Below, piece by piece: positions 1-14,419 of a stretch of DNA of 17,837 nucleotides. The position numbers were made by a program, and so were the translations under genes. The DNA is from Candidatus Enterococcus ferrettii (GTDB lineage: Bacteria > Bacillota > Bacilli > Lactobacillales > Enterococcaceae): contig NZ_JAFREL010000092.1 of assembly GCF_017377655.1 (NCBI RefSeq), positions 1 to 17,837 on the forward strand, given 5' to 3'. Position 1 is the stretch's first letter. Each line of letters opens with the position of its first letter. Under the pieces are notes generated by a model that saw nothing but the letters and a program-made list of their open reading frames with translations, searched no databases and had not been told where the DNA came from.

Positions 1-30
1 AGCTCCCTCAAGATTTTTTTTGTAACATCA

Positions 31-660
31 CTAGTGTGAGACCTCTAAATCAAACGTTGCGACTCTTTGCTCACCAGTAACAAAATCAATTTCAAATTCA
101 TTAAATTCTGATCCATCAACCGGTAATTCCCAAAACATTTGTGTTATACCAGATTCGTTAGGCAAAACTTCTGCTTGACCAATCTGTTGATTTACTAAGG
201 AGAGTCTCACACCATCTTTTGTATACGCTTGGAAATATTGTGCATAGGGCAGAAAAGGTTGCTCCATAGCTAGATTAGTATACTCAACTTTCACCGCTAC
301 CATGCGTTCCGTGTCGTAACTCTTTAGGTCAGACATGCCTTTTGGAAAGGCTGATTGCTTCGTAGTTGCCTCAATGATTTTAAGCTCAGCAGTCTTAGTT
401 TCCCCGTCACCAAAATCAACGCTCTCATTCATACCATAGACTTGGACCTCTTGTGTCAATCTCTCACTGGTTTCTTTCTGCGCACTATCATTAGTTACTT
501 GTTTTTTGTAATTGGAAAATTCTTCTTTAAGCTTAGTGTTTTCTGCTTCTAGCTTCGCGATCTTTTCTTTTAAGTCAGCAGCCTGAGTCGTTGGTGTTTC
601 AGAGGTACAACCTGTCATCAGAGGCAATGCTATGACTAAAAGTAGAAGTATTTTCTTCAT
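31..660 (-). CDS. Coiled-coil lipoprotein with a probable DUF4352-like beta domain
   Basis: 209-residue predicted lipoprotein, probably anchored to the outer face of the membrane. Residues 1-17 are a short lipoprotein signal peptide (two Lys, then a Leu/Val/Ile-rich core) ending in the lipobox LMTGC, with lipid-modified Cys18. Residues about 29-55 have heptad-like spacing rich in Lys, Glu and Leu, typical of a coiled coil. Residues about 72-206 look like a small beta-sandwich of the kind found in Firmicute DUF4352/telokin-like lipoproteins; this is a resemblance, not a certain assignment. The ATG follows a GAGG ribosome site at 9 nt. Only 21 bp separate it from the GT8 gene, so it is probably the last visible gene of the same operon. 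Its location suggests an extracytoplasmic role next to the export channel, for example in folding or retention of the exported glycoprotein, but nothing in the sequence proves this. Confidence 0.8.
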   Translation of the reverse strand: MKKILLLLVIALPLMTGCTSETPTTQAADLKEKIAKLEAENTKLKEEFSNYKKQVTNDSAQKETSERLTQEVQVYGMNESVDFGDGETKTAELKIIEATTKQSAFPKGMSDLKSYDTERMVAVKVEYTNLAMEQPFLPYAQYFQAYTKDGVRLSLVNQQIGQAEVLPNESGITQMFWELPVDGSEFNEFEIDFVTGEQRVATFDLEVSH

Positions 661-681
661 CTAATAAACCTCATTCTTTCA

Positions 682-1500
682 TTAAAAAGATTCAGCATTA
701 TTATGTACCTTAAATACTAAACTTTTCATTCCAGTAAAATTTATCCAAAATTCCCTATCCCAGTTGTTCAATAAGGCTAAATGATTCCAAGGCTTGTTTT
801 TTTCTGCGCTGCACTTGAAATTTTTAACAATACATTCTTGTTCGTACCTTTCAGCTTCAAAAGTTTCATTTGCATCTGTGACATTAAAATTTGCTGGTAA
901 AAATTGACTATTTTCCTTAAATATTTGGTAGGTGAGCTCGTTCATAGTGATCTCTGTTGAACAAGTATTAATTGTAGTTATTAGGTCGTCTACAGAATAT
1001 CTTTGATTATATTCCTGAGTATTAAAAATGATACTATCTGAATTAAAAGATTCCGAATTAGTCTGACTATTTTTAGTACCTCTTATTTTTTTCACTAAGC
1101 CCACTGCATATTCATCAGTAAACGCACAGAAATACTCAGCAATGTTTCCCACAACCAAGGTCTCAGCATCCAAATATATTATTTCTTCAAAACCAGAAAA
1201 ATATCGAGGCAAGAAGAACTTTGTCAGATGATATCGCATAGGTCCCACATCCACTTTGAATGATGTTATCTGATTTAACTCTTGAGGCATTTGCCAAACA
1301 CTAATCTCGATCTGTTCTTTTTTCATGGCTTGTGAAAAAGCCCGTAGAATGGTAATATCTTTCTCAACAATATCATCTACCAAAAGTAAAATACTCAAAA
1401 ATTCTTCACTATCATAATGCTTAATGAGTGAAAAAAGAGATGTTCCCACCAATTCAATATTATTCTGGTTGATGGTATACACTACTGCTTTGCTTGTCAT
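682..1500 (-). CDS. GT8-like glycosyltransferase with altered metal motif
   Basis: 272-residue cytoplasmic protein with the layout of family 8 glycosyltransferases (GT-A fold). The N-terminal strand VVYTINQNN and following helix match the GT8 nucleotide-binding start. R89-Y90 sits in the helix before the core strand EEIIYLDAETLVVGNI (106-120). FNSDSIIFN at 152-160 aligns with the usual FNSG segment, LPANFN at 201-206 with the LPxxxN segment, and KPWNH at 236-240 with the C-terminal KPW(x)H motif. The metal-binding DxD is changed to D111-A-E113, and the later Asp-Gln-Asp region reads NEL (187-189). The fold is therefore clear, but metal binding and activity could be altered or lost. The likely role is extending the O-glycan on the exported adhesin after GtfA/GtfB and the Gtf3-like enzyme. 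The start is an ATG with a strong GAGGAGGT ribosome site, 20 bp after the actin-like gene. Donor and linkage are unknown. Confidence 0.8.
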   Translation of the reverse strand: MTSKAVVYTINQNNIELVGTSLFSLIKHYDSEEFLSILLLVDDIVEKDITILRAFSQAMKKEQIEISVWQMPQELNQITSFKVDVGPMRYHLTKFFLPRYFSGFEEIIYLDAETLVVGNIAEYFCAFTDEYAVGLVKKIRGTKNSQTNSESFNSDSIIFNTQEYNQRYSVDDLITTINTCSTEITMNELTYQIFKENSQFLPANFNVTDANETFEAERYEQECIVKNFKCSAEKNKPWNHLALLNNWDREFWINFTGMKSLVFKVHNNAESF

Positions 1501-1520
1501 AGTTTATACCTCCTCATATT

Positions 1521-2969
1521 TTACAGAAAATCCGCATCAAAATCCGTCAGAGCAGTCAACAACTCAGCTTGCTCTTTCAGAATGTCTTCGATCTCTAATT
1601 CCTTTTCTTCTGGGATCACGACATCATCCGAATCAGTTTGAGTGTTGCTATCGCCTTCTACTTTTGAATATAGATTGTCTTCAGTAGAAACTATTTCATC
1701 AACGTTATCCTCTCGCAACTTACTTTCTTCATTAATCTCTGTGTGAGGACTTACTTCCGTCTCAGTTGAAGACTCCAATACTGTTGCAGCTGTATCCGAA
1801 AAATCTTCACTCGTTTCAGTAATTTCCTGACTTTCTTCTTGAAAATTGGTTGCCGATGATTCAACTTGAACCGCTTCGTTATAGCTGGGAAAGTTGTCCC
1901 CTAAAAAGATACTTGCAAATGTATAGCTGCCTCGAGCACTTTTATTGTTGAGCTTTGTACAATACAAACCAAAATTTTCGAGATAGCGATCGACACTTTT
2001 TTGATTAATAATTCCTTTTTCCAAATCTCGTATGATGATATTATCCGCATATTGCAAATCGTTGTCTTTGATTAAACAAGATAATACCTTCTTCGTTTCC
2101 TCAATAGATTCAGCTCTAATAAGTTCGTTCAAATCAATTTGTTGTCGCCCATTGACCGTTAAAGTATTATTCTCATTACCTTCAGTCAGCACGTTATAAA
2201 CCATATCCTTATCAATTTGAAAAGGATTTTTATTTTGTTGCATGCAGCTTGTTTTGTATTCTTGAACAATCCGATCAGAAAACTCGTACAGTCCATCCGA
2301 TATTTGTTCACTCTTAATTAATTCACCGTTATCATAAACATCACAGTTCACATAATGATCATTCAAATCTAGAACATAATTCAATCCAGATAAGGCAGTA
2401 ATTTCATTTTCTTTACATTCCAAATAATTCTCGCAGGCATTTTCTAAAATAGCACCAAACGTTTTCGGAACTAGCGTGACTTCTTCAACTAAAATAGTCA
2501 TCTTTTCTCCATTAATCTCTGCCCAAAATGCCCCTTTAAAATAGGTTTCAATTTTACTTAATTCCTCGGAGCTTGTAGCTGAAACCCCTATACACAAGGA
2601 GCATCTCATTTGGTTATCTTCAGTTTTATCAAATAGATCCTGTCTCTTATCCGCTAAATAAGCTAATACACTGCGAATGAGCATTACCGTTTCATTATTT
2701 TCCAGATGTTCTAATACGTTGCCGAAGGTTTGATAGGCATCTAAACGACGACTGTACCGTTTGGTAATTCCCCAGTAGATCGCCTTTTGCATTTCCTGCA
2801 GTAATATCTCACTACCAATTGATTCATTTGATTGCTTTCTGAACAAAGATGGTTTCCAGGTATTCTTTTTCACATAGGCGTATACCGAACTAAAAATCTC
2901 TTCATAGTTTGGCCCACAAATTCCTATTCTGTACTGATCGATATCTAGTGCGATTATTTTCTTTACCAT
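1521..2969 (-). CDS. ParM/Alp-type actin-like protein, degenerate nucleotide site, acidic tail
   Basis: 482 residues from the ATG at 2969, chosen because GGAGG lies 5 nt upstream; a TTG at 2981 would overlap that ribosome site. The first ~365 residues follow bacterial actin-like ParM/StbA/Alp proteins. There is a phosphate-1 hairpin IIALDIDQYRIGI (5-17). A segment at 143-174 has the ParM-like order 'KG-F--EINGEKMTI---EV-LVPKTFGAIL'. A phosphate-2 hairpin lies at 198-216 (VLDLNDHYVNCDVYDNGEL). SARGSYTFA at 344-352 resembles the late A-x-A-R-G-Y motif. The glycines expected in both phosphate loops (DIGxGNT, DIGGGTTD) are missing, and I see no GGG adenosine loop, so ATP hydrolysis is doubtful. 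Residues ~366-482 form a low-complexity tail rich in Glu, Asp, Ser and Thr. The gene follows a coiled-coil gene by 42 bp and precedes the GT8 gene by 20 bp. Function in an accessory Sec locus is unknown to me; scaffold or filament roles are inference. Confidence 0.7.
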   Translation of the reverse strand: MVKKIIALDIDQYRIGICGPNYEEIFSSVYAYVKKNTWKPSLFRKQSNESIGSEILLQEMQKAIYWGITKRYSRRLDAYQTFGNVLEHLENNETVMLIRSVLAYLADKRQDLFDKTEDNQMRCSLCIGVSATSSEELSKIETYFKGAFWAEINGEKMTILVEEVTLVPKTFGAILENACENYLECKENEITALSGLNYVLDLNDHYVNCDVYDNGELIKSEQISDGLYEFSDRIVQEYKTSCMQQNKNPFQIDKDMVYNVLTEGNENNTLTVNGRQQIDLNELIRAESIEETKKVLSCLIKDNDLQYADNIIIRDLEKGIINQKSVDRYLENFGLYCTKLNNKSARGSYTFASIFLGDNFPSYNEAVQVESSATNFQEESQEITETSEDFSDTAATVLESSTETEVSPHTEINEESKLREDNVDEIVSTEDNLYSKVEGDSNTQTDSDDVVIPEEKELEIEDILKEQAELLTALTDFDADFL

Positions 2970-2974
2970 AGTTT

Positions 2975-2979
2975 CCTCC
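2975..2979 (-). promoter_or_regulatory. Ribosome binding site fixing the actin-like protein start
   Basis: GGAGG on the minus strand, 5 nt before the ATG at 2969. An in-frame TTG at 2981-2979 overlaps this site and is therefore rejected as the start. Confidence 0.75.
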
Positions 2980-3011
2980 AACTGAGTGCGCCTTATCTTT
3001 CAATGTCTGAA

Positions 3012-3449
3012 TTACTTTGCTTGCTGATCTGTTTGTTCCTCAGCTTCAACGACTGTCAGGTCTTCACTTTTCTCTATTGCTTGGTCATCAAAAATCATCG
3101 TTGAAAGTTTTTTTAATTGTTCCTCCTGATGATCAATTAATTGTGCTAGCTCTTCTACTTCTTGAACTACAGGCTTTGTTAGTTTATAGCAGGAGACAAA
3201 ACCGCTTATCTGAGAACAAATAGCATCTATCTCTGAATAACTCGCACTTAACTCATCGTTCTTGGTTCTTAGTTTATTGAAATCATTTAATGTGACCGCT
3301 CGATTGTCTTTTATTTTGGAGATATATTGATTTAATTCATTTCTTAACTGATCACGAGTTTGAACTTCTCTTTGTACTCGTTCTAATAATTCAACTAAGC
3401 GTTCCTTATTGACAATGCTATCAACATTTTTTGTTACTCCATTTGACAT
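3012..3449 (-). CDS. Small coiled-coil protein, unknown function
   Basis: 145-residue soluble protein with no signal peptide or membrane span. It is almost wholly predicted helical: residues ~12-50 are a charged heptad-like segment, ~52-100 a second helical stretch after VTLNDFNKL, and ~98-115 a third. The C-terminal ~30 residues are acidic and Glu/Gln-rich. The order of helices and the 'T-L-x-D-F' turn before the middle helix recall the two paralogous proteins at 6315-6704 and 5814-6254, so it may be a diverged third copy; that similarity is weak. Its ATG overlaps the end of the Gtf3-like gene by 16 bp, indicating translational coupling, and the actin-like gene follows 42 bp later. The position suggests a partner of either the glycosyltransferase or the actin-like protein. 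I do not recognise a named family. Confidence 0.75.
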   Translation of the reverse strand: MSNGVTKNVDSIVNKERLVELLERVQREVQTRDQLRNELNQYISKIKDNRAVTLNDFNKLRTKNDELSASYSEIDAICSQISGFVSCYKLTKPVVQEVEELAQLIDHQEEQLKKLSTMIFDDQAIEKSEDLTVVEAEEQTDQQAK

Positions 3450-4468
3450 TCACTGTCCCCCACTTCTTTAAAAAGACTATCTCTTTCCACTTGCAGCAAA
3501 GCATTTCTTGTAAAAATTCCTTTTCTTAAAAGCTGACTAAACTTATTAACTCGTTTCTTTAGTTTTAATAACTCATCTGTGCTAAGAGATTCAAAAAGCA
3601 AGTCTATTTCTTTCAACGAATCTATTGCGAAGCCTAGCTGATATTTTGATATCCATTCAGCAATAGCGGCATTCTTCCAAACAATCACGGGTAAACCTAA
3701 AGCTAAATAAAGCGAAACTTTGTGAGGAGCATTATATCGAGTATAGTTTTGATAGTTACCGCCTTGCTGTAAATTATCATCCCAAGCGATGCCGAAACGA
3801 TTTTTAGGCATTCTTCTTAGCAGCTCTTCTTGTTGATAGGTCCCCCCATAGCTTACCTGTTTACTAAATTCAATCTCACCTTTAGTCCCAAAGGCAGCTA
3901 CCTTCGTTTTACTTGGCCAATTACTTAAAAAAATTGATTTTTGAATATTTCCAGCAAACACGATACTTTTATCCAAACTAGAATCTAGGCTTATACTGTC
4001 AGGAATTAAATAATCAAAAAGTGGTTTTGTCAGCATCGGTGTTTTTACACCCATTAGGATAAATTGCTGTTCCATTTTTTTGCTGTGCGTAATCAACCAG
4101 TCTGATTGATTAAGTAAGTTTAACTCTTCTGGAATATTGTTTCCCCGCAACAGTTCGGAATCGTGAATTAGTAAGACAACCGTTGCTCCTCTTTTTTTTA
4201 ATTGATGAAGGAAATTCAGTTCAAATCGATAACTATTGTAACTAGGATATTGATAGACAATCATGTCTCCGGCAGAAACACCCGCAGTAATACCATCTAT
4301 TCTAGCAATCAGTGCCCTGTCATCTTCATTACTATCCACATATCGATAAATATACAATCTTTGAAATCCTATAGTATCTCCAATTAAAGAGATATCATTT
4401 CTCGCTTTAGAGACAGAATCCACTGATTTTCCCTCGACGATGTATGTTAGCCAATTAGCCAAAGACAT
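3434..4468 (-). CDS. gtf3: Gtf3/Nss-family glycosyltransferase
   Basis: 344-residue cytoplasmic glycosyltransferase of the Gtf3 (nucleotide sugar synthetase-like, Nss) family, GT-B fold. In streptococci these enzymes add glucose to the GlcNAc placed on serine-rich repeat adhesins by GtfA/GtfB. Recognisable segments are KARNDISLIGDTIGF (21-35), GDMIVYQYPSY (67-77), the LLIHDSELLRG strand and loop (98-108), IVFAGNIQKS, and the C-terminal nucleotide-sugar region APHKVSLYLALGLPVIVWKN followed by AIAEW. Length and motif order are normal for the family. The ATG follows AAGGAG closely. The gene overlaps the end of the XRE-type regulator by 14 bp and the start of the next coiled-coil gene by 16 bp, so the three are probably translated in a coupled way. 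The donor sugar is inferred from the family, not visible. Confidence 0.87.
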   Translation of the reverse strand: MSLANWLTYIVEGKSVDSVSKARNDISLIGDTIGFQRLYIYRYVDSNEDDRALIARIDGITAGVSAGDMIVYQYPSYNSYRFELNFLHQLKKRGATVVLLIHDSELLRGNNIPEELNLLNQSDWLITHSKKMEQQFILMGVKTPMLTKPLFDYLIPDSISLDSSLDKSIVFAGNIQKSIFLSNWPSKTKVAAFGTKGEIEFSKQVSYGGTYQQEELLRRMPKNRFGIAWDDNLQQGGNYQNYTRYNAPHKVSLYLALGLPVIVWKNAAIAEWISKYQLGFAIDSLKEIDLLFESLSTDELLKLKKRVNKFSQLLRKGIFTRNALLQVERDSLFKEVGDSECQME

Positions 4469-5447
4469 ATTTCTCCTTAACTGTTAAATTTTTCAGAAAC
4501 TTATACTCATTTTCCGGTAGATAAAAGGACAAATGCTGTATATCTCGTTTGGTCTTTTGAATAACCTCATCCTTGCTTGTTAAGTTGTCATTAACAAAAA
4601 GATAGGACAATAAGTCAAAAACTTCTTTCGTTTGATGAGAAGTAGTTTTCTTTTTGTCTAAGATGACCGTTGCCTTATTTAATAGCTGTATCGCTTGTGC
4701 ATGACTATTCATGTCTACAAGACATAAAGATAGGTCAATCACACATCCTACGATAATTTCGTTCCATTCTTTTAATTGCTCACTAGATAACTTTTTAAGA
4801 ATGCTATTTTCTAATATAATACTTTCTTTTTCCATTGCTGTAGGAGCCAAAGAGTAATCGATTTTTGTTCGCAATGTCGCTAAATAAAGTAACACATCAT
4901 ACATTGTAAAATAATCAATCGAGAGGAAATAATCCTCAATCTTTTTCAAACTATTCCCCGGATCACGTTTCGCTTTGCAATGTAGGGTTAAATCGGCATA
5001 TGCTAAAATAAGTTTGTAGGCAAAATTATCTTCATTAGAATTGCGATATTTTTCCAAACTGCTTCTAATTTCCACGAAATGTTTTAAATCGTTCTCTTCG
5101 TTTGACATCGAAGTATAGATTACCAGGCTCAACATTTGAATTTGTTCATCCGTTGAATTGACAAATAAATTCAGCAATTCTCGATCGGACATATTCAATA
5201 GCTTCTTTAGACCAATAATTAATTCTAAAGGTAAATCGCTTTGATAACGAAGCCAGCGATAATAACGAGATTTTGAAAGATTAATTTTTCGTTCGAGCGT
5301 TCGTATAGGTATTCCTTTTCGTTTACGGATTTCTTCAAGTCTTTCACGGTCGATATTTACAGCTACAACCGAATTTTGTGGTTCCTGCAACGTTGGATTT
5401 ATCATATTAATTAATCTGCAAATACTTAAAAGATTACTTTTCATCAT
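4455..5447 (-). CDS. XRE-type helix-turn-helix regulator with helical C-terminal domain
   Basis: 330-residue predicted DNA-binding regulator. Residues ~34-92 form an XRE/Cro-like helix-turn-helix: RLEEIRKRKGIPIRTLERK is the first helix pair, INLSKSRYYRWLRYQ the recognition region, and LPLELIIGLKKLLNMSDREL the closing helices. Residues ~100-320 are all-helical with TPR-like alternation. This is the general architecture of Rgg/PlcR-type peptide-responsive regulators, but I cannot assign a subfamily. The ~30 residues before the HTH are unusual. Start ATG-ATG at 5447/5444 follows GGGAG. The gene opens the second half of the cluster after a 118-bp gap holding two inverted repeats, and overlaps the Gtf3-like gene by 14 bp, so it likely regulates its own operon. 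The ligand, if any, is unknown. Confidence 0.75.
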   Translation of the reverse strand: MMKSNLLSICRLINMINPTLQEPQNSVVAVNIDRERLEEIRKRKGIPIRTLERKINLSKSRYYRWLRYQSDLPLELIIGLKKLLNMSDRELLNLFVNSTDEQIQMLSLVIYTSMSNEENDLKHFVEIRSSLEKYRNSNEDNFAYKLILAYADLTLHCKAKRDPGNSLKKIEDYFLSIDYFTMYDVLLYLATLRTKIDYSLAPTAMEKESIILENSILKKLSSEQLKEWNEIIVGCVIDLSLCLVDMNSHAQAIQLLNKATVILDKKKTTSHQTKEVFDLLSYLFVNDNLTSKDEVIQKTKRDIQHLSFYLPENEYKFLKNLTVKEKYVFG

Positions 5448-5495
5448 TACACACTCCCAGAGTTAACCATAAGACTCTTTTCTTCTCTTTTTCAT

Positions 5496-5524
5496 CTATG
5501 AAGGTCTGTCAATTTTCTTCATAG
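5496..5524. repeat. Inverted repeat upstream of the XRE regulator
   Basis: CTATGAAG (5496-5503) and CTTCATAG (5517-5524) are perfect 8-bp inverted arms around a 13-bp centre. On the minus strand the centre contains TTGACA, a perfect -35 hexamer, but I find no good -10 at the right distance. No T-run follows on the transcribed strand, so it is not a classical terminator. It lies about 50 bp before the XRE regulator and could be its operator. Confidence 0.5.
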
Positions 5525-5526
5525 GT

Positions 5527-5551: not shown

Positions 5552-5565
5552 CACGCCAAAAAATA

Positions 5566-5751
5566 TTACCGACCAATTGCTTCAATCAGCGAATAGATTA
5601 ATGAACCTAAAATGACACTGGACATAATAATAGAGATAACAATTGTCAGAAGCTTGGAGCCCTTATCTTCATCCTGTGAATTATCTACTACTTTGTTGCT
5701 CTCTTGTTCGAACTTTCTTTCTATATCTCTAGACAATTGATCTCTTTTCAC
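5566..5751 (-). CDS. asp4: Asp4-like small membrane protein of the accessory Sec system
   Basis: 61-residue protein with a charged N-terminal half (RDIERKFEQ) and one C-terminal membrane span at ~35-57 (LLTIVISIIMSSVILGSLIYSLI). Size, charged amphipathic N-terminus, single C-terminal span and position after gtfB fit Asp4, the small SecE-like partner of SecY2 in streptococci. The assignment is by architecture and context; at this length sequence similarity is weak evidence. The start is GTG, supported by a near-perfect AAGGAGG 7 nt upstream. It lies 62 bp after the second coiled-coil gene and is the last gene before the 118-bp gap. No Asp5 (SecG-like) neighbour was found. Confidence 0.65.
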   Translation of the reverse strand: MKRDQLSRDIERKFEQESNKVVDNSQDEDKGSKLLTIVISIIMSSVILGSLIYSLIEAIGR

Positions 5752-5758
5752 CAGATGA

Positions 5759-5765: not shown

Positions 5766-5813
5766 CGAAACGTATCTTTTTTATCTATCGGTTTTATACT
5801 GGCACGATTATTT

Positions 5814-6254
5814 CTAGTCCAAAGAACTAGTTAAATCATTAAGCTGTAAAATGCGTAAATCTTGCTGATCTGCTTTTTCTATAAGCTGTGTTAGCAGTTG
5901 GTCGCTTTCTTTTAAGAAACAGCGCTTGATCACATATTTTTCCGTAGTATAAGAGACCGATATAGTTAAAAATAATTCTCTCAATAAAGCATATTCTTCT
6001 TTGTATTCTTGATAGATACGATTAAATGATTCCTTAGTTGTTCTGAAATCTTCTAGGCTTGTTCCCTCTTGCTCGGCCATTTCAGCTATTTCTACATGAA
6101 TCATTTGAAGCTTTTCAATTTTTTCATGTTGTTTAGCCACTAACTCTTGAGCTTTTTGTTTTTCTGTTTTAAATCCTAATAAAGAAGATTGATTTTCCAT
6201 CAATAATTGTTCGATTTTTTCAAGCAGACGATCTGCGCGTATTTGATTACTCAT
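5814..6254 (-). CDS. Helical/coiled-coil protein, paralogue 2 of a tandem pair
   Basis: 146-residue soluble protein, no signal peptide or membrane span, predicted almost entirely helical. Residues ~8-60 form a first long charged helix, a short break occurs at EQEGTSLEDF (~62-71), and ~72-125 form a second helix, giving a helical hairpin. It is clearly related along its length to the protein encoded at 6315-6704: both start '(I)xADxxxxKxxxLxxEN', both have an 'AE-x-x-G-[ST]-[ST]' turn followed by a helix with FN-x-[IV] and Y-[KE] positions, and both end with an ESxxxxxxI segment. The C-terminus here is about 18 residues longer. Start ATG has GAAGGAG 8 nt upstream. Placed between gtfB and asp4, it is likely cytoplasmic and may act with GtfB or the Asp complex. 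I do not recognise a family. Confidence 0.8.
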   Translation of the reverse strand: MSNQIRADRLLEKIEQLLMENQSSLLGFKTEKQKAQELVAKQHEKIEKLQMIHVEIAEMAEQEGTSLEDFRTTKESFNRIYQEYKEEYALLRELFLTISVSYTTEKYVIKRCFLKESDQLLTQLIEKADQQDLRILQLNDLTSSLD

Positions 6255-6314: not shown

Positions 6315-6704
6315 TTAATTTTCGGTGTTCTGTATTTCAAGCATAATTTTTTCACTTTCCTCAAATAAATAATGCTTAGCTACAAGATTTTCTGTTTCAT
6401 AGGCAACTTTTAAAGTTAATGCTATTTCCTTTAGTGCAGCATACCCCTTCTTATAGGAATCAAATACTTGATTGAATTCTTTTTTCAACTGTTTAATTTG
6501 GTCGATGGTTGACCCACTTTTTTCTGCTAAGGCCTTTATTTGATTATTAAGCTGTTGCATTTTTTCAAAATCTGTATGCTGTTCCTGTAATAGCACGTTC
6601 GTCTTTTCTGTTTCTTGATCAAACTTTAGCAAAGTTGCTGAATTTTCGTTCATAAGTTCTTGCATTTTCTGATTAATCTTATCTGCTGGAATTGTTACTG
6701 TCAT
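6315..6704 (-). CDS. Helical/coiled-coil protein, paralogue 1 of a tandem pair
   Basis: 129-residue soluble helical protein and the sister of the protein encoded at 5814-6254. A first helix covers ~7-58, the turn is EKSGSTIDQI (~60-69), and a second helix covers ~70-125. The size and helical hairpin recall the general shape of small secretion-associated proteins such as WXG100 relatives, but no W-x-G motif is present at the turn. The ATG has GAAGGAG 9 nt upstream and overlaps the last 26 bp of gtfB, so translation is probably coupled to gtfB. This matters because GtfB is unusually short and this protein begins exactly where GtfB's missing domain would be expected. It could compensate for that domain, but that is inference. 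Confidence 0.8.
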   Translation of the reverse strand: MTVTIPADKINQKMQELMNENSATLLKFDQETEKTNVLLQEQHTDFEKMQQLNNQIKALAEKSGSTIDQIKQLKKEFNQVFDSYKKGYAALKEIALTLKVAYETENLVAKHYLFEESEKIMLEIQNTEN

Positions 6705-7569
6705 AAACTGCTTCTCCTTCGTCTAATATGGCCGCTTTATCTAATGGAACATTTCTGTCTTTTAACTGTTTGTAGTAAATGTTGGCCATCCTTACTTCAT
6801 TTATATAGCTAATGTTATCTTTTAAAATGTTAAGCAAATTCCCCTTTATTACGCCTTTGTTGTCAAAGGGAGATTCTTCTAAATACAAGATATTATGAGA
6901 AGTTGTTTTTTCAAGAGCAAACATTTCCATTCCCATATAAGATATTGAAATCTGATCTTTTTCGGTAACCAATTGTGCGACTTGATCAGTCACAAACTCA
7001 AGTAAGCTATTATATTTTGCTGTCACTCTCATCGTTTCTGGATCTCTAACTACGACCAAATTTATTTTCCCTTCATAGAAAAAATAACTTACTATCGGAA
7101 GTTGTCTACTGTTGAAAAAGTCGATTTCTTGTACAGTATTATTGAAAAAGAAAAGATTACTGTATAATCCACCGTCGTCAGCGTATTCTTCTATAAAATC
7201 CGTACTACCATCTGCGTTTAAGTACTGAACCTCTTTTACATGTCTCCGAGTCTCCGGATATAAGTCAACACGACCAATTTCTTCACCATCGTTCACAATA
7301 GAAATACTTCTGTCTTCATTCATGAATATCTCAGCTGAATACACAGTAGGTATTTGATTAAAAAAAAGAAAATTATCCTTGTGATGTTCCCTTTGGGTTA
7401 GAGAATCCAGTAAATTAATCCCTTGAACTTCTTCTTTGAATATTAACTTATTGAAAGTCGGACTAGGAGAAATTGAAATCACTTTTCCTCCATGAGCCTT
7501 TAGTCGTTTTTTCTGCTTTTCCCAAATCGAATTTGCTGGTTTGATGATACTTACTAACTCATATTCCAT
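6679..7569 (-). CDS. gtfB: GtfB-like glycosylation adaptor, C-terminally short
   Basis: 296 residues from the ATG at 7569, supported by GGAAGGAG 7 nt upstream; upstream codons to 7650 lie inside gtfA and have no such site. GtfB is the non-catalytic GT-B partner that stabilises GtfA and binds acceptor Ser/Thr-rich repeats during GlcNAc addition. Visible parts are an N-terminal Rossmann start (YELVSIIKP, ~3-11), a DUF1975-type beta-meander at ~75-200 containing LNADGSTDFIEEYADDGG, and the returning N-domain segment ISYMGMEMFALE to NEVRMANIYYKQL (~209-269). The protein stops at the interdomain point LDKAAILDEGEAV (~276-288). Family members I know are about 440-450 residues, so the second Rossmann domain (~150 residues) is absent. 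Gtf- and coiled-coil-gene overlaps are intact on both sides and no leftover coding sequence for the domain was seen. Either a shortened functional form or a decayed one. Confidence 0.78.
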   Translation of the reverse strand: MEYELVSIIKPANSIWEKQKKRLKAHGGKVISISPSPTFNKLIFKEEVQGINLLDSLTQREHHKDNFLFFNQIPTVYSAEIFMNEDRSISIVNDGEEIGRVDLYPETRRHVKEVQYLNADGSTDFIEEYADDGGLYSNLFFFNNTVQEIDFFNSRQLPIVSYFFYEGKINLVVVRDPETMRVTAKYNSLLEFVTDQVAQLVTEKDQISISYMGMEMFALEKTTSHNILYLEESPFDNKGVIKGNLLNILKDNISYINEVRMANIYYKQLKDRNVPLDKAAILDEGEAVYDSNNSSR

Positions 7570-9004
7570 TAATAAGCTCCTTCCATTTGTTTGCAATGAT
7601 GAAATCCTGATATTCAGAGACAGATCTGCGCGTATTTTTGGATAAATCATTTCGGTCCGAATTAATTACCTGGCGAATACCTTCCGTCAATTCTTTCACA
7701 CTATAAGCTTCGTCAGATCTAGAATAATCTTTTAAAAATCCGTTAATGCCGTCCTCAATGAGTTCAATTGCACCAAACCTTGCCTTGAAAGTTACAATTG
7801 GAAGTCCCGCGTCTAAAGCTTCTATATAAGTTAAACCGAAACCTTCTGAATAAGACCCTGAAATAAATGCATCATACTCTGGATAAACTTCTTCAATTTT
7901 ATTAGAGTGCCCTTGTAGTTTTACGTACTCCTCCGCATTTAATGACTTAATCAGTTCTCGTAGTTTTTTATCTTCTCCACCCTGTCCATAAATGTCTAGT
8001 GACAGTCCCGGATATTCTTTGCGTGCTTCATTAATGGCCTTAATCACAATATCAATATGTTTTTCAGCAGCCAGCCTTGAAACTGTGATAAATTTTTGAA
8101 TAGGGGAAAGATTTTCCTTTTTAAACTCTTTTGCTTCTTCCTGATCTCTAATACCACCAACAGGAATTGCCGCAATCTTATCTTTATCATTGGGAAAATC
8201 AACTAATAGATCTTCACGCTGAAGTTTAGTTGCTACTACTACTTTGTCGGCCATATCCATATGAGTCAGCAAATACTCATAAAAATTATTCCATAACGGT
8301 GCCGATTTCACGTCCCGGTCTGAAAGATGGTCGGCATGAATAATTTCGATAATAGTACAGTTTTCAGGCTTATGAGCAAATAAGGCTGATTCTGATTCTT
8401 GACCCCTATCAATAATAAAATTGTTTACACCTTCAAATTTTTCAGCTAGATACGTGAAAAAGAATCGTTGAAGCTGAACCTCCGTTTTGAAAAAAAGGTG
8501 TCTGCCTTCAAAATCAAAAAGATGAATATTGCTGATTAATCTACCTCTATGTTTGTGATCTACATACTCATACATCACTTTCCTTTTAGCCGTTTTATAA
8601 TCAAAAATTTCAATCCTATAGGTAGAAACAACCAGCATATTTTCTTTTTTCTTACTCGGAGATTTCTCTAAGTGTTCCACGATTCGCAAACCAGAGGAAG
8701 TGATTATCTCCTTGATTCTGTGAGTATTTGTATGGTCAACTAAAATTTCTTCTGTAAACTTATATTTTTTTGAAGCCCCTTTTTCCAAATACCCTTCACC
8801 TAATACAAATAATTCCCACATATTAATCACTCTGTCGTCTGGAATCTTCCAATTGCTCATTGCCTCATGCAAATTTTTAACCAATTCAACGAACACATAT
8901 TTATAAGGAAGCTGAACTTTATCAAAGCATTTTGCGCGGTAAAACTGTGCATGTTCAACACCTGAATTTCCAATTCCCATTGCTTTATTTACAAAAAAAT
9001 TCAA
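7559..9004 (-). CDS. gtfA: Accessory Sec GlcNAc transferase GtfA
   Basis: 481-residue cytoplasmic GT4-type (GT-B) O-GlcNAc transferase that puts the first GlcNAc on Ser/Thr of the serine-rich repeat adhesin, working with GtfB. The N-terminal GMGIGNSGVEHAQ-like stretch (FVNKAMGIGNSGVEHAQFYRA, split at ~4-24) is the usual GtfA opening. The DUF1975 beta-meander insertion spans ~75-190, IIHADH is at 221-226, donor-binding R310 and K315 lie in VSRLAAEK, and the E-x7-E pair is E387/E395 in SEGFGLTYIEAL. Length is close to the family norm. The start is TTG at 9004, overlapping the asp3 stop as TTGA, with AGGAG 9 nt upstream. Its stop lies 11 bp inside gtfB. These overlaps imply coupled, balanced synthesis with its neighbours. 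Confidence 0.93.
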   Translation of the reverse strand: MNFFVNKAMGIGNSGVEHAQFYRAKCFDKVQLPYKYVFVELVKNLHEAMSNWKIPDDRVINMWELFVLGEGYLEKGASKKYKFTEEILVDHTNTHRIKEIITSSGLRIVEHLEKSPSKKKENMLVVSTYRIEIFDYKTAKRKVMYEYVDHKHRGRLISNIHLFDFEGRHLFFKTEVQLQRFFFTYLAEKFEGVNNFIIDRGQESESALFAHKPENCTIIEIIHADHLSDRDVKSAPLWNNFYEYLLTHMDMADKVVVATKLQREDLLVDFPNDKDKIAAIPVGGIRDQEEAKEFKKENLSPIQKFITVSRLAAEKHIDIVIKAINEARKEYPGLSLDIYGQGGEDKKLRELIKSLNAEEYVKLQGHSNKIEEVYPEYDAFISGSYSEGFGLTYIEALDAGLPIVTFKARFGAIELIEDGINGFLKDYSRSDEAYSVKELTEGIRQVINSDRNDLSKNTRRSVSEYQDFIIANKWKELINGI

Positions 9005-9948
9005 TTCGTCTCACTCCTAGTTTCATTTTTAGATTCTGTATCTAAAATTTTCTTTACCAAATATGAGGATTTTCTATTTTCTACTGCTTGTTCTAGTACA
9101 CGGTAAGCCAAAGTATTATTCCGGTTTTTCTCTTTTAACTGATCTATTCGTTCTGAAGGTTTCACCGATATGTTTGGCAAGCGTGAGGTTGGAATTAAAA
9201 TATTTAAGGCTGCCGGCAATTCCATATATGATTGAGGTAAAGAATTGAAGCACGGGCCACGCAAAATATCTACTAACACTTGATGGCTGCTGTGCAGCAC
9301 CTGTTCATATACATATACAGCTGCTGGCAACAAAAGTGATTCCTCAGTATTTCCTAAAAAAAAGAAATAATTCGTATGATCATTAAGAGTAAGGCTGGTA
9401 CTATATTTAGCATTTTTCAAAACCACGATTTCATTTTTTGTCTGCTCCATATACTCATTCTTCTTAATTTGAATGATATTTAGTGTCTCAATGAAATCGA
9501 TTTTGCAGTCATCAGCTAAGCCCTCATCTGATATAGTTAGGTACTTAAAGAGCATATACTGATGCTTTTTGTTGACTAATTGAACCTTGTAACTCATCGC
9601 ATTGTCGGGATAAGTGAACTGACCATTCAGATTTTGAAAGTAAATTTTATTAATTACATCATTATTGATATCGAAAAATTCGATCTCCACTTGCACAGCT
9701 TCTTTGTTATCAAACTCAGCATTCACTTGAATATCATAAGACTTCCCATTTTCTAAAAGGGGCAGCATTGGTGATTTTCTGCTTACATGATATTCAGTTC
9801 TTGAATACCATGTTTTAATTGGTGTTCCTGAAGGCATGAGTGGAGATGAAAAATGAACATAATCCAACGCCACAAAACGAATATCCGTTCCGTAGTTGTA
9901 GTTATCATTAAAGTCAGCTCCCCACTTTACCATGTAAAAATTTTTCAA
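9001..9948 (-). CDS. asp3: Accessory Sec protein Asp3, extended form
   Basis: 315-residue cytoplasmic protein. Asp3 forms a complex with Asp1 and Asp2 and is needed for export of the glycosylated adhesin; its core has a carbohydrate-binding-module-like beta fold. Residues ~7-140 fit this core: VKWGADFNDNYNYG, TWYSRTEYHVSRKSPMLPLL (47-65), LENGKSYDIQVNAEF and EIEFFDINND, ending at HQYMLFKYLTISD (129-141). Residues ~150-315 are an additional domain with an alpha/beta-looking stretch (TNYFFFLGNTEESLLLPAAV) and a charged C-terminus. The Asp3 proteins I remember best are roughly 150-180 residues, though longer ones exist. The start is TTG at 9948 with GAGGTG 5-7 nt upstream; an ATG at 9933 would be too far from it. 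It follows asp2 by 15 bp. Confidence 0.85.
   Translation of the reverse strand: MKNFYMVKWGADFNDNYNYGTDIRFVALDYVHFSSPLMPSGTPIKTWYSRTEYHVSRKSPMLPLLENGKSYDIQVNAEFDNKEAVQVEIEFFDINNDVINKIYFQNLNGQFTYPDNAMSYKVQLVNKKHQYMLFKYLTISDEGLADDCKIDFIETLNIIQIKKNEYMEQTKNEIVVLKNAKYSTSLTLNDHTNYFFFLGNTEESLLLPAAVYVYEQVLHSSHQVLVDILRGPCFNSLPQSYMELPAALNILIPTSRLPNISVKPSERIDQLKEKNRNNTLAYRVLEQAVENRKSSYLVKKILDTESKNETRSETN
9014..9018 (-). promoter_or_regulatory. Ribosome binding site supporting the TTG start of gtfA
   Basis: AGGAG on the minus strand, 9 nt before TTG at 9004-9002. No ATG occurs in the first several codons before conserved GtfA sequence begins, so the TTG is required. Confidence 0.7.
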
Positions 9949-9953
9949 CCTCT

Positions 9954-9959
9954 CACCTC
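9954..9959 (-). promoter_or_regulatory. Ribosome binding site deciding the asp3 TTG start
   Basis: GAGGTG on the minus strand, 5 nt before TTG at 9948. The alternative ATG at 9933 lies 20 nt from it, which is too far for efficient initiation. Confidence 0.6.
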
Positions 9960-9963
9960 ACAG

Positions 9964-11550
9964 TTATTCAAAATCATCCATGACTCGACGGAAATTATTG
10001 AATAGGATATTTCTATATTGTTTTAGAAACCATTTATTAACTCCTGGGCTATTATCATTGTGCCGTCCGGTTAATCCTTTATAGAGAACTCGTGCGGTTG
10101 AACGATTTTCTTTTAAAGTATTAAAAAGCATTGGAAATGCTTCCTTGTCGTAATCGTCTTGCTTCATATAGGCAACTGCAAATGTTGTATCGGAGTAATC
10201 TCCTTTAGAAAACTTATCCCAAAACCGTTTGTTTAATTTTTGAGCCGACTCTTCTGTTATTTCTCCGGTGTTGTAAAATAGCATATCCAAAGCAGTTGGA
10301 AACCCTCCTGGGCGTAGAACACGTTCATTAAGTGCTATCGTTCCGATGTTTGTTAAGGGTTTTCCGATAATTACACTATTCGGTGACAAATCACTTGCGT
10401 AGTAGAGTGCGCCAAATGTCCCCATTGATAAACCCGACAAAATTAAATCGGAATTCTGGAAGCCTAGAACAGTTAATTTATTTTGAATGACCTCGACTAA
10501 TTTCTTTTCAAATGCTTCACTGCCAAGGTAAAAATTTCCTCCCTCTAATCTAGGATCAGCAATCAGCATGAAAGGTCCTCCCCCCATACTGCTCATCATT
10601 CTTCTTCCTTCAAAGCCTTCTGCTGAACGATAACCAGAGAAATATATTGCTAAGGGAGGTTTTAAGTCTCCGCAATTGAAGTAATACAATATTTCACCAT
10701 CCATTTGCTCTTCATCGCAAAGCCTTTGCCCACCAGGAATCATTGTGCTGTGATCAGCTAAAGCTCGCCGAATGTGTATCTGACCGATTCTAATTTCTCC
10801 ACTTTTTCCTTTAGCATACAAAGCAACATTTACATACACATCCGCTGTACTGTTAAACTTAACCTTTTCTCCACGCTTCAATTTACTCATGGGTGCCTCT
10901 ACTATCTGAACAATTTGATTCGTGTTCTCTTTGATAAGAAATAGTTTGAATAGTAATTCCACTTCTCCTGATAGGACATCTGTTTCAGCGAAGAACTCCA
11001 TTACTTCTTCACCCTTGACTACATTTGTCATCTTCCAAGATATAATTTGCTTGAATTCAGAAGAGAAATCACCCTGTACTTCTACATAAGAGTTGCCTTT
11101 CTTACCAATGGTCCCCTTAAAATCCTCGTGGATGATTAAATGATCATGGGATAATTTATAACCCAATTGTCCGAAAGTAAACTGATCATTCACAAAATTA
11201 ATCACTTGACTAAAGTTCTCCATATCAAGTGGTTTAGCTTCCATTATTGCTAGCAATTGCTTCATATCACTGGTAAGATTCGCCTTCCTATCATAAATAA
11301 TTTGATACGGCGGCAGCTGCCTAAGTAAATCATTTTTGTCTAAGTTCCTCACTGCTTTTTCTTCTAAAACAAAGATTGCTCGAGAATACCTCTTATTGAA
11401 CAGACCATTTACAAATAGCTTCTCCTCCTGCTCGTCTAATAAAAAATCATAGTCTGAAGGAAGCCATTGATAGCTATATTTAGGAGAAATATCATTTAGA
11501 TCCACCGCTTGTTTCTGGCTGATATGAAAGAGTTTCGTCTGCTTAGCCAT
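9964..11550 (-). CDS. asp2: Accessory Sec protein Asp2 (glycan O-acetyltransferase)
   Basis: 528 residues from ATG at 11550, which has GGAAGGAGG about 7 nt upstream and overlaps the asp1 stop by 8 bp. Asp2 couples adhesin modification to export: in streptococci it O-acetylates GlcNAc on the adhesin through a Ser-Asp/Glu-His alpha/beta-hydrolase triad. Here the nucleophile elbow is GLSMG with Ser375, the acid is probably D465 or D466 in YMKQDDYDKEAF, and the base is His497 in GRHNDNSPG; the spacing agrees with that described for the Streptococcus gordonii protein. Residues ~135-265 are a beta-rich N-terminal accessory domain, and ~286-310 (ILYYFNCGDLKPPLAIYFSGY) hold the oxyanion-side strand and loop. 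All catalytic residues are present, so activity is expected. Confidence 0.93.
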   Translation of the reverse strand: MAKQTKLFHISQKQAVDLNDISPKYSYQWLPSDYDFLLDEQEEKLFVNGLFNKRYSRAIFVLEEKAVRNLDKNDLLRQLPPYQIIYDRKANLTSDMKQLLAIMEAKPLDMENFSQVINFVNDQFTFGQLGYKLSHDHLIIHEDFKGTIGKKGNSYVEVQGDFSSEFKQIISWKMTNVVKGEEVMEFFAETDVLSGEVELLFKLFLIKENTNQIVQIVEAPMSKLKRGEKVKFNSTADVYVNVALYAKGKSGEIRIGQIHIRRALADHSTMIPGGQRLCDEEQMDGEILYYFNCGDLKPPLAIYFSGYRSAEGFEGRRMMSSMGGGPFMLIADPRLEGGNFYLGSEAFEKKLVEVIQNKLTVLGFQNSDLILSGLSMGTFGALYYASDLSPNSVIIGKPLTNIGTIALNERVLRPGGFPTALDMLFYNTGEITEESAQKLNKRFWDKFSKGDYSDTTFAVAYMKQDDYDKEAFPMLFNTLKENRSTARVLYKGLTGRHNDNSPGVNKWFLKQYRNILFNNFRRVMDDFE

Positions 11551-13138
11551 TGAAGACCTCCTTCCATTTTTCCATAACAATATGTGGACTATATTCTTCA
11601 ATCAATCGCACATTTTCCACTAACGAGTTGTTCCAGTTATTTAGATTTTTCAAAAAGTAATTGATTGCATCCTCTAGTTCCGAGATACGACTAATAACCA
11701 TTCCATTCTTTTTATCTTCTATATAATCTGTTGAACTTTTGACAACCTGCGGAATACCTGCACTAATAGCAAGCGACTGCATCTGCAAATTGTATTCCTG
11801 GTTAATATCGATATATAGTCGAACACTTTGAAAATCATTTTGAACCGAAAGCAGGGTTGGATTTATCCGAAATTCAATACGGTGATAAACACTTATTGCT
11901 TTGACTAGCCCCGTCCAGGACTTTTTTTTACGAATCTCTTCTACTGCTATTTCATCTGCCTTGTATAAGTGTTTCGTCCTTTTCGCTTCAATAAAATGTT
12001 CAGCTTTTTTGAAATCCTCTGAATCACTATCAATAGCAAAGAAACTATCAATCAGCTCTTTTTGTTGTTCCTGCAACTTACTCATTTCAAAAGCGGTTTG
12101 AACTTCAAAAACCAAGGTATGCTTTGTATGTTTAATTAAGTTATTGACAAAAACTTCATTTGCTTCATAGACACGTTCATTCATTTCCCCTACACGCCAG
12201 TACATGATCAATTGCACAACTGAGTTACTCATTCCCAGATTTAATTCCGTATTGAACATTGGGATTGTAGTAATGGACGTATTCTCCAGGAAAGAATTAG
12301 CTTTCTTTATATTCATCAGTTCATGCTGTTTGCTGGTCGTATCTGTTACGATATATTTACTTGTCTTCATCCCTTCAAACAAAGCACTTTGGTTGAAGGT
12401 TCTTAAATTGTCATTATCCGAAATAATTCGAATCATTGATTCTTGATCTTGGATCGCTTTCGTGATCTCTAAAATATTATTTTCAGTAACTGTTAAAATC
12501 TCTTTTTGGTTTTCTAATGATGCTGCTTTATGGATTAATACATCTGAAATAGCTTCAGTAATCGTTCGGTAACTTTTTTCCTTCAACAAGTCATTTCCAG
12601 CTTCTCCAATAATGATTCTCGGTGTATCGGACAAAACTTCAATCACTGTTTTTTCACCAAATTCATTAAAGTATTCACGTTTACTTACTTGACCCGCAGC
12701 ATTAGCATATTCCTTCGAAGATAAAAAACCGCGATCGTCATAAGAATCAACTATTGTCCAATCGTTTTCAAAAGTCTTTACTCTCTCAATACAACCGTAC
12801 TTATTGTAAAGTACCTCCCCATACATCTTAGCTTCTTTGAGAAGTACTATTCCAAACGGTGTATAAACTTTTTCAATCATTTCTGGTAGTTCAAGATCTT
12901 CGATGCTTAAAGGATGTCCATTAATTAAATGAATGTTTTGCAGAACGTCATAAGCACGCCAATAACGATCGGAAAAGATGGTATACTCTTGTGCCTTGTA
13001 TCGTAAAAAGGGCAAATAATTTAGTAATAACAATTCATATTTTTCACCATTTTTGGAAAACAATCGAGCAATATTGAGCATTCTATCATTTTCCAAATGG
13101 TTATCACTTTGTTTCCAGTTAGGTATTAAATAGATCAT
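11543..13138 (-). CDS. asp1: Accessory Sec protein Asp1
   Basis: 531-residue cytoplasmic protein with a GT-B-like fold that lost transferase activity in characterised relatives; it scaffolds the Asp1-Asp2-Asp3 complex and helps target the glycosylated adhesin to SecA2. The N-terminus MIYLIPNWKQSDN with KYELLLLNYLPFLRY (33-47) is the standard Asp1 opening. A GtfA-like beta-meander covers ~107-170 (YDDRGFLSSKEYANAAGQ). The C-terminal Rossmann half includes YIDINQEYNLQMQSLAISAG, then QVVKSSTDYIEDKKNGMVI, and ends in EEYSPHIVMEKWKEVFNG. Length is normal. The ATG follows GGGAG at a longish 11 nt, 24 bp after secY2. Confidence 0.92.
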   Translation of the reverse strand: MIYLIPNWKQSDNHLENDRMLNIARLFSKNGEKYELLLLNYLPFLRYKAQEYTIFSDRYWRAYDVLQNIHLINGHPLSIEDLELPEMIEKVYTPFGIVLLKEAKMYGEVLYNKYGCIERVKTFENDWTIVDSYDDRGFLSSKEYANAAGQVSKREYFNEFGEKTVIEVLSDTPRIIIGEAGNDLLKEKSYRTITEAISDVLIHKAASLENQKEILTVTENNILEITKAIQDQESMIRIISDNDNLRTFNQSALFEGMKTSKYIVTDTTSKQHELMNIKKANSFLENTSITTIPMFNTELNLGMSNSVVQLIMYWRVGEMNERVYEANEVFVNNLIKHTKHTLVFEVQTAFEMSKLQEQQKELIDSFFAIDSDSEDFKKAEHFIEAKRTKHLYKADEIAVEEIRKKKSWTGLVKAISVYHRIEFRINPTLLSVQNDFQSVRLYIDINQEYNLQMQSLAISAGIPQVVKSSTDYIEDKKNGMVISRISELEDAINYFLKNLNNWNNSLVENVRLIEEYSPHIVMEKWKEVFNG

Positions 13139-13162
13139 TGATTTGTACGCTCCCGCTTTTCA

Positions 13163-14380
13163 CTAAAAAATATTATAGTCACGCTTGGAAAATATGAAGC
13201 GCATTTCTTGGGTTATGGTGTCTATAATAATAATCAGCATAAACACACTCCCAAAATAAAACGCTAAATTTGACACAATTTCTACTCTCAACCCTATAAA
13301 CAAGGGGATAAGAGAAACCAAGACCAAATAGCTGTTCCCAACCATCGAAATTCTTAGTAGCTTTCCTTTTATATAAGTTTCCGTTTGCTGACCCGGAGGA
13401 ATCTCGTAAATATAGTCACCGGATTCTTTTAAATGTTTAGCAATATCATTGGGCCGAACATTGATAAAGCTAAATCCCATACCTAAGCCGTAGAGGATTA
13501 GTCCGTATGTCAAGATGCCTTCCACAGAGTTAAATGAAAAAAACCTCGATAAAATACTTGAGAAAAGCGTATTGCTCCACGCATCGTTTAGCAGTAATAA
13601 CTGAGGTATAGAGAAAACCGTTACTGCAAACATAAATGGCATCGCTCCAGCGGTTAGCAGACGAATAGGAACATACGAGTTATTGAAACGACTGTCAATA
13701 CCGGTGCGTTGAATGTATATTCGGTATTCAGAATGGTATAAAAAGACTGTCATATAAAGATAAATAAGCGTAATAACAATTAAACCAATGATTTGCTCAC
13801 TGCCAATTTTCAATGTTCCACTTTGCCCCGATACAAGCATCGCTGGTAAATTAGAAATTAAGCCTGGCAAGATAAACAGACTTTGGGCACCGATCCCTTT
13901 TTCACTATTGATATCTGACAACCATGAAATAAACATTCCACCTGTGGCAAGTATCAAAATAACCATCATGTAGAAAGCCATTCTGCTGATATTTGAAAAT
14001 GCATCATAGTTTCCTAACGTCCGAAAGCGAAACATTATAGCTGTTCCCTGTGCAATGGCGAAAATTAGTGTCAACGTTCTTTGAATATAGCCTCTTTGTT
14101 TGGCAGAAAGATTTTTAATTCGATCTATATCAATCATGCTGATTGTGGTCCAAATAATCAGTGATGTCATGTAAGGACCCATACCTAATGATAGTAATGT
14201 CGGTTTAGCAAAATTACCGCCAGTTGTTGTTGATAAGAACCGTAAAACAAGATTTTGCGCTTTTTCTGTTTGAGGTATATTTACAAATCCAGGGACTTCA
14301 ATACTCTTACCGATTTGTACAATTGCCAACAATAGAATACTCCAGCAAATCCGTTTAATTATTTCCTTGTCTTTTTTCAT
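13163..14380 (-). CDS. secY2: Accessory Sec translocase channel SecY2
   Basis: 405-residue polytopic membrane protein with about ten spans, the dedicated channel for the glycosylated adhesin. TM1 is ~11-24 (CWSILLLAIVQIGK), followed by a short plug-side segment. TM2 begins LLSLGMGPYMTSLIIW (62-77), matching the SecY 'LGIxPYI' pattern. The large C-terminal half begins with the cytoplasmic stretch SEYRIYIQRTG and then YVPIRLLTAGAMPFMFA, the counterpart of the SecY TM7 start. Housekeeping SecY is usually ~430 residues; SecY2 proteins are similar or slightly shorter. No housekeeping ribosomal-protein neighbours (rplO, adk) occur; the asp genes follow directly, which identifies it as SecY2. ATG with AGAAGGA about 9-10 nt upstream; 39 bp after secA2. 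Confidence 0.94.
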   Translation of the reverse strand: MKKDKEIIKRICWSILLLAIVQIGKSIEVPGFVNIPQTEKAQNLVLRFLSTTTGGNFAKPTLLSLGMGPYMTSLIIWTTISMIDIDRIKNLSAKQRGYIQRTLTLIFAIAQGTAIMFRFRTLGNYDAFSNISRMAFYMMVILILATGGMFISWLSDINSEKGIGAQSLFILPGLISNLPAMLVSGQSGTLKIGSEQIIGLIVITLIYLYMTVFLYHSEYRIYIQRTGIDSRFNNSYVPIRLLTAGAMPFMFAVTVFSIPQLLLLNDAWSNTLFSSILSRFFSFNSVEGILTYGLILYGLGMGFSFINVRPNDIAKHLKESGDYIYEIPPGQQTETYIKGKLLRISMVGNSYLVLVSLIPLFIGLRVEIVSNLAFYFGSVFMLIIIIDTITQEMRFIFSKRDYNIF

Positions 14381-14419
14381 TTTTTTCCGTCCTTCTTTGA
14401 ATACTAGAATATCGGTGGC

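Follow-up and report, generated by a model that had tools for sequence, protein, structure and literature searches.

A ParM-related pseudo-actin with replaced ATPase motifs accompanies the accessory Sec cluster of some enterococci and may act there as a structural adaptor

Introduction

Among the described proteins closest to the one reported here, a pseudo-actin encoded in an enterococcal accessory Sec cluster, are the ParM/StbA actins, such as pSK41 ParM (3js6), Dh-cParM1 (8x1i) and Alp7A (5ec0). The pseudo-actin resembles these actins in sequence, in the order of its landmarks and in predicted fold over the whole core. It differs from them in that all four ATPase motifs are replaced in every one of 12 family members, in carrying a tail of 68-150 aa with a conserved C-terminal helix, and in its place in accessory Sec clusters, with no ribbon-helix-helix or multi-copy repeat neighbor found. 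The predicted fold of the pseudo-actin core is also shared by CorM of Anabaena (9rmi). The solved CorM structure, by contrast, is a filament obtained with CorR present, as far as the accessible part of its description goes, and the protein comes from another organism and context; a search of the literature for CorM returned nothing relevant among the matches listed.

Actin folds also occur in secretion and pilus machines. According to the accessible sections of one study, the cytoplasmic domain of GspL and its structural counterpart PilM are actin-fold proteins set between an ATPase and a membrane complex; GspL binds the secretion ATPase GspE and is itself part of the membrane complex, and its cytoplasmic domain has been reported to form linear arrays (PMC4471445). 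GspL is also described as having both a transmembrane segment and a periplasmic region, whereas the pseudo-actin has no transmembrane segment, and the nearest fold matches of the pseudo-actin, among those listed, are ParMs. GspL and PilM would still offer the nearest working analogy, an analogy of work and not of membership.

To our knowledge, it is not settled how cytoplasmic adhesin glycosylation is coupled to SecA2/SecY2 export, and we know of no scaffold of this type among the known parts, Asp1-5 and GtfA/B. Like the pseudo-actin, Asp1-Asp5 are accessory Sec proteins encoded in the cluster, and Asp4 and Asp5 are described, in the portion of the source available, as SecE/SecG-like partners of SecY2 (PMC5076819). 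An actin-like accessory Sec component was not reported among the matches listed from the open-access literature, which is no proof of absence, and the accessible text of an accessory Sec review contains no word beginning 'actin' (PMC6973325). A paper on the E. raffinosus megaplasmid names the Sec and gtf genes of the cluster region, and in its accessible text neither 'actin' nor 'ParM' begins any word (PMC10323788); the annotated E. raffinosus record labels the actin 'hypothetical protein'. What is new in the pseudo-actin is the branch; the fold and the system are both known. On balance, we find it reasonably probable that the protein derives from a ParM-type plasmid actin and is now a fixed part of the enterococcal accessory Sec (SecA2/SecY2) cluster for serine-rich-repeat (SRR) adhesins, having given up ATP to serve as a structural adaptor.

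Results and discussion

The window, by which we mean the whole stretch of 17,837 nt analyzed here (Candidatus Enterococcus ferrettii, contig NZ_JAFREL010000092.1), holds one accessory Sec/SRR glycosylation cluster, with all of its genes on the minus strand. The cluster begins with a winged-helix regulator, followed by secA2, secY2, asp1, asp2 and asp3 (9001..16795), Asp1-3 being separate genes, and by the priming glycosyltransferase pair gtfA and gtfB (6679..9004). Next come two coiled-coil-like paralogs of one family, of 129 aa (6315..6704) and 146 aa (5814..6254), which share 34% identity, and a 61-aa protein with one transmembrane (TM) segment (5566..5751), whose GTG start stands behind a GGAGG. 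An HTH_3 regulator (4455..5447), present in the mapped clusters except the MMGLQ5-1 stretch, precedes a Gtf3/GtfC-type (Nss-like) glucosyltransferase of SRR glycan synthesis (3434..4468; five solved Gtf3-type relatives, E 7e-38 to 1e-34). The order then runs through a 145-aa protein that is coiled-coil-like by eye and by weak Pfam coil matches (3012..3449), the pseudo-actin (1521..2969), a GT8 glycosyltransferase (682..1500; PF01501) and a lipoprotein-like protein. The Sec genes are named after the annotated E. raffinosus record, by similarity to it. The names of the glycosyltransferase pair follow an NCBIfam match (gtfB), similarity to the annotated E. raffinosus glycosyltransferase and the usual make-up of accessory Sec systems. 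A PDB search with the 5814/6315 family gave weak coiled-coil matches, the best at E 0.0036. A scan of positions 1 to 7000 detected no minus-strand site resembling a terminator, which fits an operon, a scan of this kind being weak evidence.

An earlier note, made from the letters of the window alone, had described the actin as lying between a coiled-coil gene and a GT8 gene, with no plasmid partition partner or centromere-like repeats. The neighbors are as described, although in only two of the 12 mapped loci, the window and E. pallens, does a GT8 gene come directly after the actin. Among 10 window proteins scanned, none matched a ribbon-helix-helix (ParR-type) adaptor, and positions 1-5500 contain no direct-repeat family of more than two copies (repeats of at least 12 nt, copies within 400 nt). 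The coordinates given for the actin were likewise correct, and the strand is minus: the gene runs from an ATG at 2969, preceded by a GGAGG ribosome-binding site, to a stop at 1521, and encodes 482 aa.

The translation contains the landmarks DIDQYRIG, EINGEKMTI, LVPKTFGAIL, DLNDHYVNCD and SARGSY, and is divided into a ParM-fold core (aa 1-358, as modeled), an acidic tail (about aa 352-458) and a C-terminal helix (aa 460-475). Since the protein has no hydrophobic or transmembrane segment, it is probably cytoplasmic. All 12 family sequences carry a tail of 68-150 aa after the core, with a net charge of -5 to -33, and all 12 conserve a C-terminal motif whose commonest form is E-[IV]-E-D-I-L-K-E-Q-x-[ED]-L-L. 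This motif is modeled as the helix, and the rest of the C-terminal part as a low-confidence tail. The idea that the motif is common to other proteins of the cluster found no convincing support. In a scored search of 536 ORFs from the window and mapped loci, a set in which some loci are represented by overlapping copies, no second carrier was convincing; the best scores outside the family were 15.8 (an E. sulfureus protein like the 3012-3449 product, hereafter 3012-like) and 15.0 (a SecA2 segment), against 29.8-44.5 inside it. As a separate observation, the 6315-like protein of two E. sulfureus-type loci (L023, 5154-5816; L025, 5956-6714) has an acidic extension ending in an ILxAQExF-like motif, which by eye resembles the pseudo-actin motif and was not ranked among the 34 matches listed in the scored search.

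Sequence and predicted structure both connect the core to ParM. The NCBIfam ParM model NF010498 matches aa 135-307 (E 5.8e-10) with 38.9 bits, far under its curated cut-off of 417 bits, and a profile of the pseudo-actin family matches a genuine ParM (E 4.8e-9). Pfam ALP_N matched weakly in 3 of 11 family members, and a PDB sequence search gave nothing meaningful (best E 2). In alignment, the landmarks of the pseudo-actin fall in the same order as those of ParM, as had been noticed from the letters. The core is predicted to adopt the two-lobed actin/ASKHA fold with a duplicated beta-sheet/helix core, in a model whose alignment included three ParMs, which favors its ParM-like look. By Foldseek, the best match to this model is CorM (9rmi), a filament protein, and the close matches include further solved filaments, namely Cbc-ParM, Alp12 and the Clostridium botulinum ParM filament. 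GspL and PilM were not among the best 50 matches listed from each fold search, which excludes nothing. The ParM-like actin fold proposed in the earlier note has thus held up in homology as well as in structure prediction and fold search.

We compared the ATPase motifs of the window's protein and 11 relatives, 12 family members in all, with those of 8 ParM controls, 3 from genomes and 5 from plasmids. The genome controls are three of the four non-window genomes matching NF010498, the fourth (G197) being in two pieces and left out. The plasmid controls come from 1,438 plasmid records, of which 30 rows were listed and 5 used. One control, the gene designated both L046 and L093, is a true ParM whose motifs are intact. 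Because the controls are ParMs by selection, their motifs are a yardstick and not a test. In all 12 family members, the P1 motif, D-[LIF]-G-x-x-x-x-K in ParM, has become D-I-D-[QE]-[YF]-R-[IV]-G; the Q of the catalytic stretch [PA]-Q-x is K or R; the P2 motif D-x-G-G-G-T reads [DE]-x-[NS]-D-H-x; and the adenosine motif [TA]-G-G reads R-D-[LI]. The eight controls all keep the P1 Gly, the Gln, the first P2 Gly and the adenosine Gly-Gly, while the P1 Lys is kept in seven (Ser in one), the second P2 Gly in five and the third in six. The loss of phosphate-loop glycines seen from the window's protein alone is therefore real and goes further than had been noticed, with the catalytic Gln and the adenosine-loop glycines gone as well, and the replacement of all four motifs throughout the family supports the suggestion that this is a pseudo-ATPase.

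The pseudo-actin presumably binds no ATP in the usual way; nucleotide might still be bound, as motifs can be replaced. Family members are 34-75% identical to the window's protein, and conservation of the replacements over this range argues for a pocket put to other use and not for decay. Invariant charged pocket residues (D9, D11, R14, D204, H205, R314 and D315) could bind another ligand. With such residues in place of the glycine loops, suggesting reuse of the pocket, the protein might be a sensor that binds, for example, a nucleotide sugar and reports the state of glycosylation to the cluster. We think this quite unlikely, given that the same charged residues could simply form salt bridges closing the cleft.

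Loss of the ATP motifs also bears on two readings suggested by the fold. In the first, the protein would be a chaperone-like ASKHA protein, using an Hsp70-like fold as a holdase or organizer that keeps the unfolded, glycosylated SRR preprotein export-competent. This is unlikely: Hsp70-type action requires ATP, the detectable sequence homology is to ParM, and we found neither a Pfam Hsp70 match nor a substrate-binding domain, the C-terminal part being the low-confidence tail and one helix. In the second, the protein would form a filament that needs no nucleotide or is unusually fueled, and the export site would be positioned by this polymer, acting as a cytoskeletal track or polar cap. The solved filaments among the close fold matches speak for such a filament, as does the co-inheritance of two coiled-coil-like families described below, but the nucleotide motifs are lost and the ParM filaments known to us depend on ATP or GTP, so that we regard it as rather unlikely.

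We estimated selection from pN/pS, values that are rough because synonymous sites are near saturation. For six pairs of relatives, pN/pS was 0.06-0.23 in the core, 0.42-0.75 in the actin tail and 0.10-0.35 in the C-terminal end (22-24 residues). For the Gtf3-like neighbor, five pairs fell at 0.16-0.23 and the sixth, G023-G048, at 0.40; the 3012-like gene gave 0.21-0.53, and gtfA and asp1, with five pairs each, 0.08-0.14 and 0.08-0.16. By this measure the core is under strong purifying selection, and the tail is fast-evolving and ends in a conserved helix.

Convincing relatives of the pseudo-actin occur in 9 of 147 related genomes, and in 9 of 105 Enterococcaceae genomes, the window's own included in both counts. 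Two further matches among the 147 were false. We rejected L031 (G072, E 4.7e-4), in which the match is limited to query residues 339-429, mainly the variable acidic tail, within a 681-aa ORF, and L032 (G081, E 0.006), which we take by eye to be an AAC(3)-acetyltransferase-like protein and which lies beside polysaccharide-type genes. A set of 395 order-level genomes yielded four carriers already known and one true ParM, L046, set aside for its intact motifs, and 398 class-level genomes contained no carrier beyond the window's own and G023. Matches occurred in 4 of 72,556 plasmid records, all from E. raffinosus. No relative was confirmed in phage records, or in viral contigs, for which the scan covered two back-translated peptide patterns. 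Scanning genome contigs with a single sequence yielded no match; scanning with a profile yielded 9 loci, in E. pallens, E. avium, E. sp. MJM16, E. raffinosus, an uncultured Enterococcus, E. sulfureus, E. sp. MMGLQ5-1, E. gallinarum and E. innesii.

We mapped 12 loci, comprising the window, eight related genomes, MMGLQ5-1 and two of the four plasmid records. A survey of their neighborhoods, which the earlier note had named as a check on its reading, found accessory Sec genes beside the pseudo-actin in all 12. Neither outcome that the note had named as refuting that reading, a fold unrelated to actin or homologs mostly beside plasmid replication genes, was observed. The order differs in MMGLQ5-1, where the actin is followed by the SRR adhesin and then by secA2 and the rest. 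The E. raffinosus cluster is carried by a megaplasmid. By eye, the surroundings include atp operon-like genes in E. gallinarum and histidine genes in E. sulfureus, and these ordinary-looking chromosomal settings indicate that the pseudo-actin is not tied to plasmids. In one E. innesii locus (L029, G067), asp2, secA2 and the 3012-like gene are each in more than one piece and the pseudo-actin frame is intact; assembly error and decay cannot be told apart there. Directly downstream of the pseudo-actin in E. innesii is a 1302-aa ORF with a signal-like start (L030, 13837-17745), which looks like a surface protein.

This distribution bears on whether the gene is a degenerate plasmid-partition ParM, a leftover segregation gene on a megaplasmid- or island-borne cluster with no role for the adhesin. 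Its homology is to ParM, loci of the E. avium group have an integrase gene upstream, and the megaplasmid paper, in its accessible sections, assigns the E. raffinosus cluster to a variable region that has a xerC recombinase (PMC10323788). Such a relic is nonetheless very unlikely. The core is under strong purifying selection despite the loss of all four ATPase motifs in 12 of 12 members, its place inside the accessory Sec cluster is kept across several lineages, two of which have surroundings that by eye are chromosomal, and the window showed neither a ribbon-helix-helix match among the 10 proteins scanned nor a multi-copy repeat nearby.

Asp2 is found in 24 of the 147 relatives, 12 of which are Enterococcaceae, and 9 of those 12 have the actin. 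The 15 Asp2-positive genomes with no convincing pseudo-actin relative imply that accessory Sec export does not in general require the pseudo-actin. Asp2-positive Enterococcaceae without the actin are G016, G052 and G066; the clusters of the latter two are distant, and that of G016 is of the same type as the window's (gtfA 61%, Asp2 49%, Gtf3-like 51%, HTH 47%) and is the only close actin-less cluster at hand.

We searched the 105 genomes with profiles of the cluster's smaller proteins, taking matches with E above 1e-4 as chance similarity and leaving them uncounted (1 genome for the 5814/6315 family, 8 for the small TM protein and, for the 3012 family, 10 plus one extra place in each of two actin-positive genomes). 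The 5814/6315 and 3012 families each had convincing matches in exactly the 9 actin-positive genomes and not in G016, and the small TM protein had them in the same 9 and in G016 (E 4e-22). Given these matching sets, the actin and the two coiled-coil-like families behave as a unit, whereas the small TM protein belongs to the core of the cluster and not to the actin module. The earlier note's pairing of the 3012-3449 product with the actin, for joint prediction, gains support, because the family of that product matches in the same 9 of 105 genomes. MMGLQ5-1 (G425) lies outside this set. Its rows in the 3012-like and small-TM alignments were picked largely by place and shape, and each is 23% identical to the window protein; neither gave a BLAST match to a window protein, in a comparison set that lacked the small TM gene, so that homology is weaker there. 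The small TM protein shows weak similarity, in the TM region only (hhalign probability 47), to a protein that we take to be a streptococcal-type Asp4, and is possibly an Asp4/SecE-like translocon subunit.

In the Sec tree, G016 is sister to the actin-positive clade with a support of 52, at which loss of the module and never having had it cannot be told apart. The actin and Sec trees (unrooted, actin-bearing loci) agree except among E. avium, E. raffinosus N17 and MJM16, which fits joint inheritance of the actin with the Sec genes. Where other clusters have the 3012-like protein and the actin, G016 encodes a charged, helical-looking protein of 174 aa (L075, 11650-12174), followed by a gene that by eye is glf-like (L075, 10533-11678). 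In E. raffinosus the annotation places a UDP-galactopyranose mutase gene (glf) some 11.5 kb downstream from the pseudo-actin (L013, 32908-34017). These glf genes hint at galactofuranose in the adhesin glycan.

Taking these observations together, we lean with moderate confidence toward the reading of the pseudo-actin as an adaptor or scaffold. It would be a nucleotide-independent structural adaptor of the cytoplasm that acts by binding. The core, possibly self-associating, would form a platform with the coiled-coil proteins, its likeliest direct partners, and the conserved C-terminal helix on its long tether, together a docking arm by their look, would dock on a partner for which GtfA/GtfB, Asp1-3 and SecA2 are candidates. 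Glycosylation of the nascent adhesin would thereby be held beside the SecA2/SecY2 exit site. We put forward, tentatively, a more specific version: the pseudo-actin and the two coiled-coil-like families would make a cytoskeletal scaffold independent of nucleotide, and this scaffold would gather the SRR-adhesin glycosyltransferases at that exit. If this scaffold reading is true, the protein would be the first actin-fold component of any Sec pathway known to us, and a plasmid actin domesticated through loss of its ATPase. An actin with a dead ATPase under purifying selection provides a concrete gene and a concrete set of partners for testing export coupling, and a natural experiment on how the actin fold works without its fuel site.

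The surroundings of the cluster show some features of islands. In each of the six E. avium-group clusters scanned downstream, a tRNA-Ser gene (anticodon GCT) separates the lipoprotein-like gene from the SRR-adhesin gene, always on the minus strand (L013, 22082-22171; L014, 22074-22163; L016, 3400-3489; L018, 2248-2337; L020, 2577-2667; L022, 2268-2358). It is absent from the other clusters scanned, apart from an unrelated tRNA-Ser/tRNA-Leu pair in L085, and from the window, which ends before the corresponding place. The gene could be an island attachment site or cargo. The idea that it serves the serine-rich adhesin is not supported by a brief comparison, in which AGY use does not follow its presence: the AGY share of serine codons is 0.38-0.58 in four adhesins with the tRNA-Ser gene versus 0.45-0.70 in four without. 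A site-specific integrase gene stands just upstream of the cluster regulator in E. avium-group loci (L013, 3877-5058, annotated; L015, 1867-2976; L017, 144-1247; L019, 2493-3599; L021, 172-1281); outside L013 it was judged by similar openings, and in L014 it comprises two ORFs. Its position upstream of the regulator suggests that the cluster is or was an integrative island.
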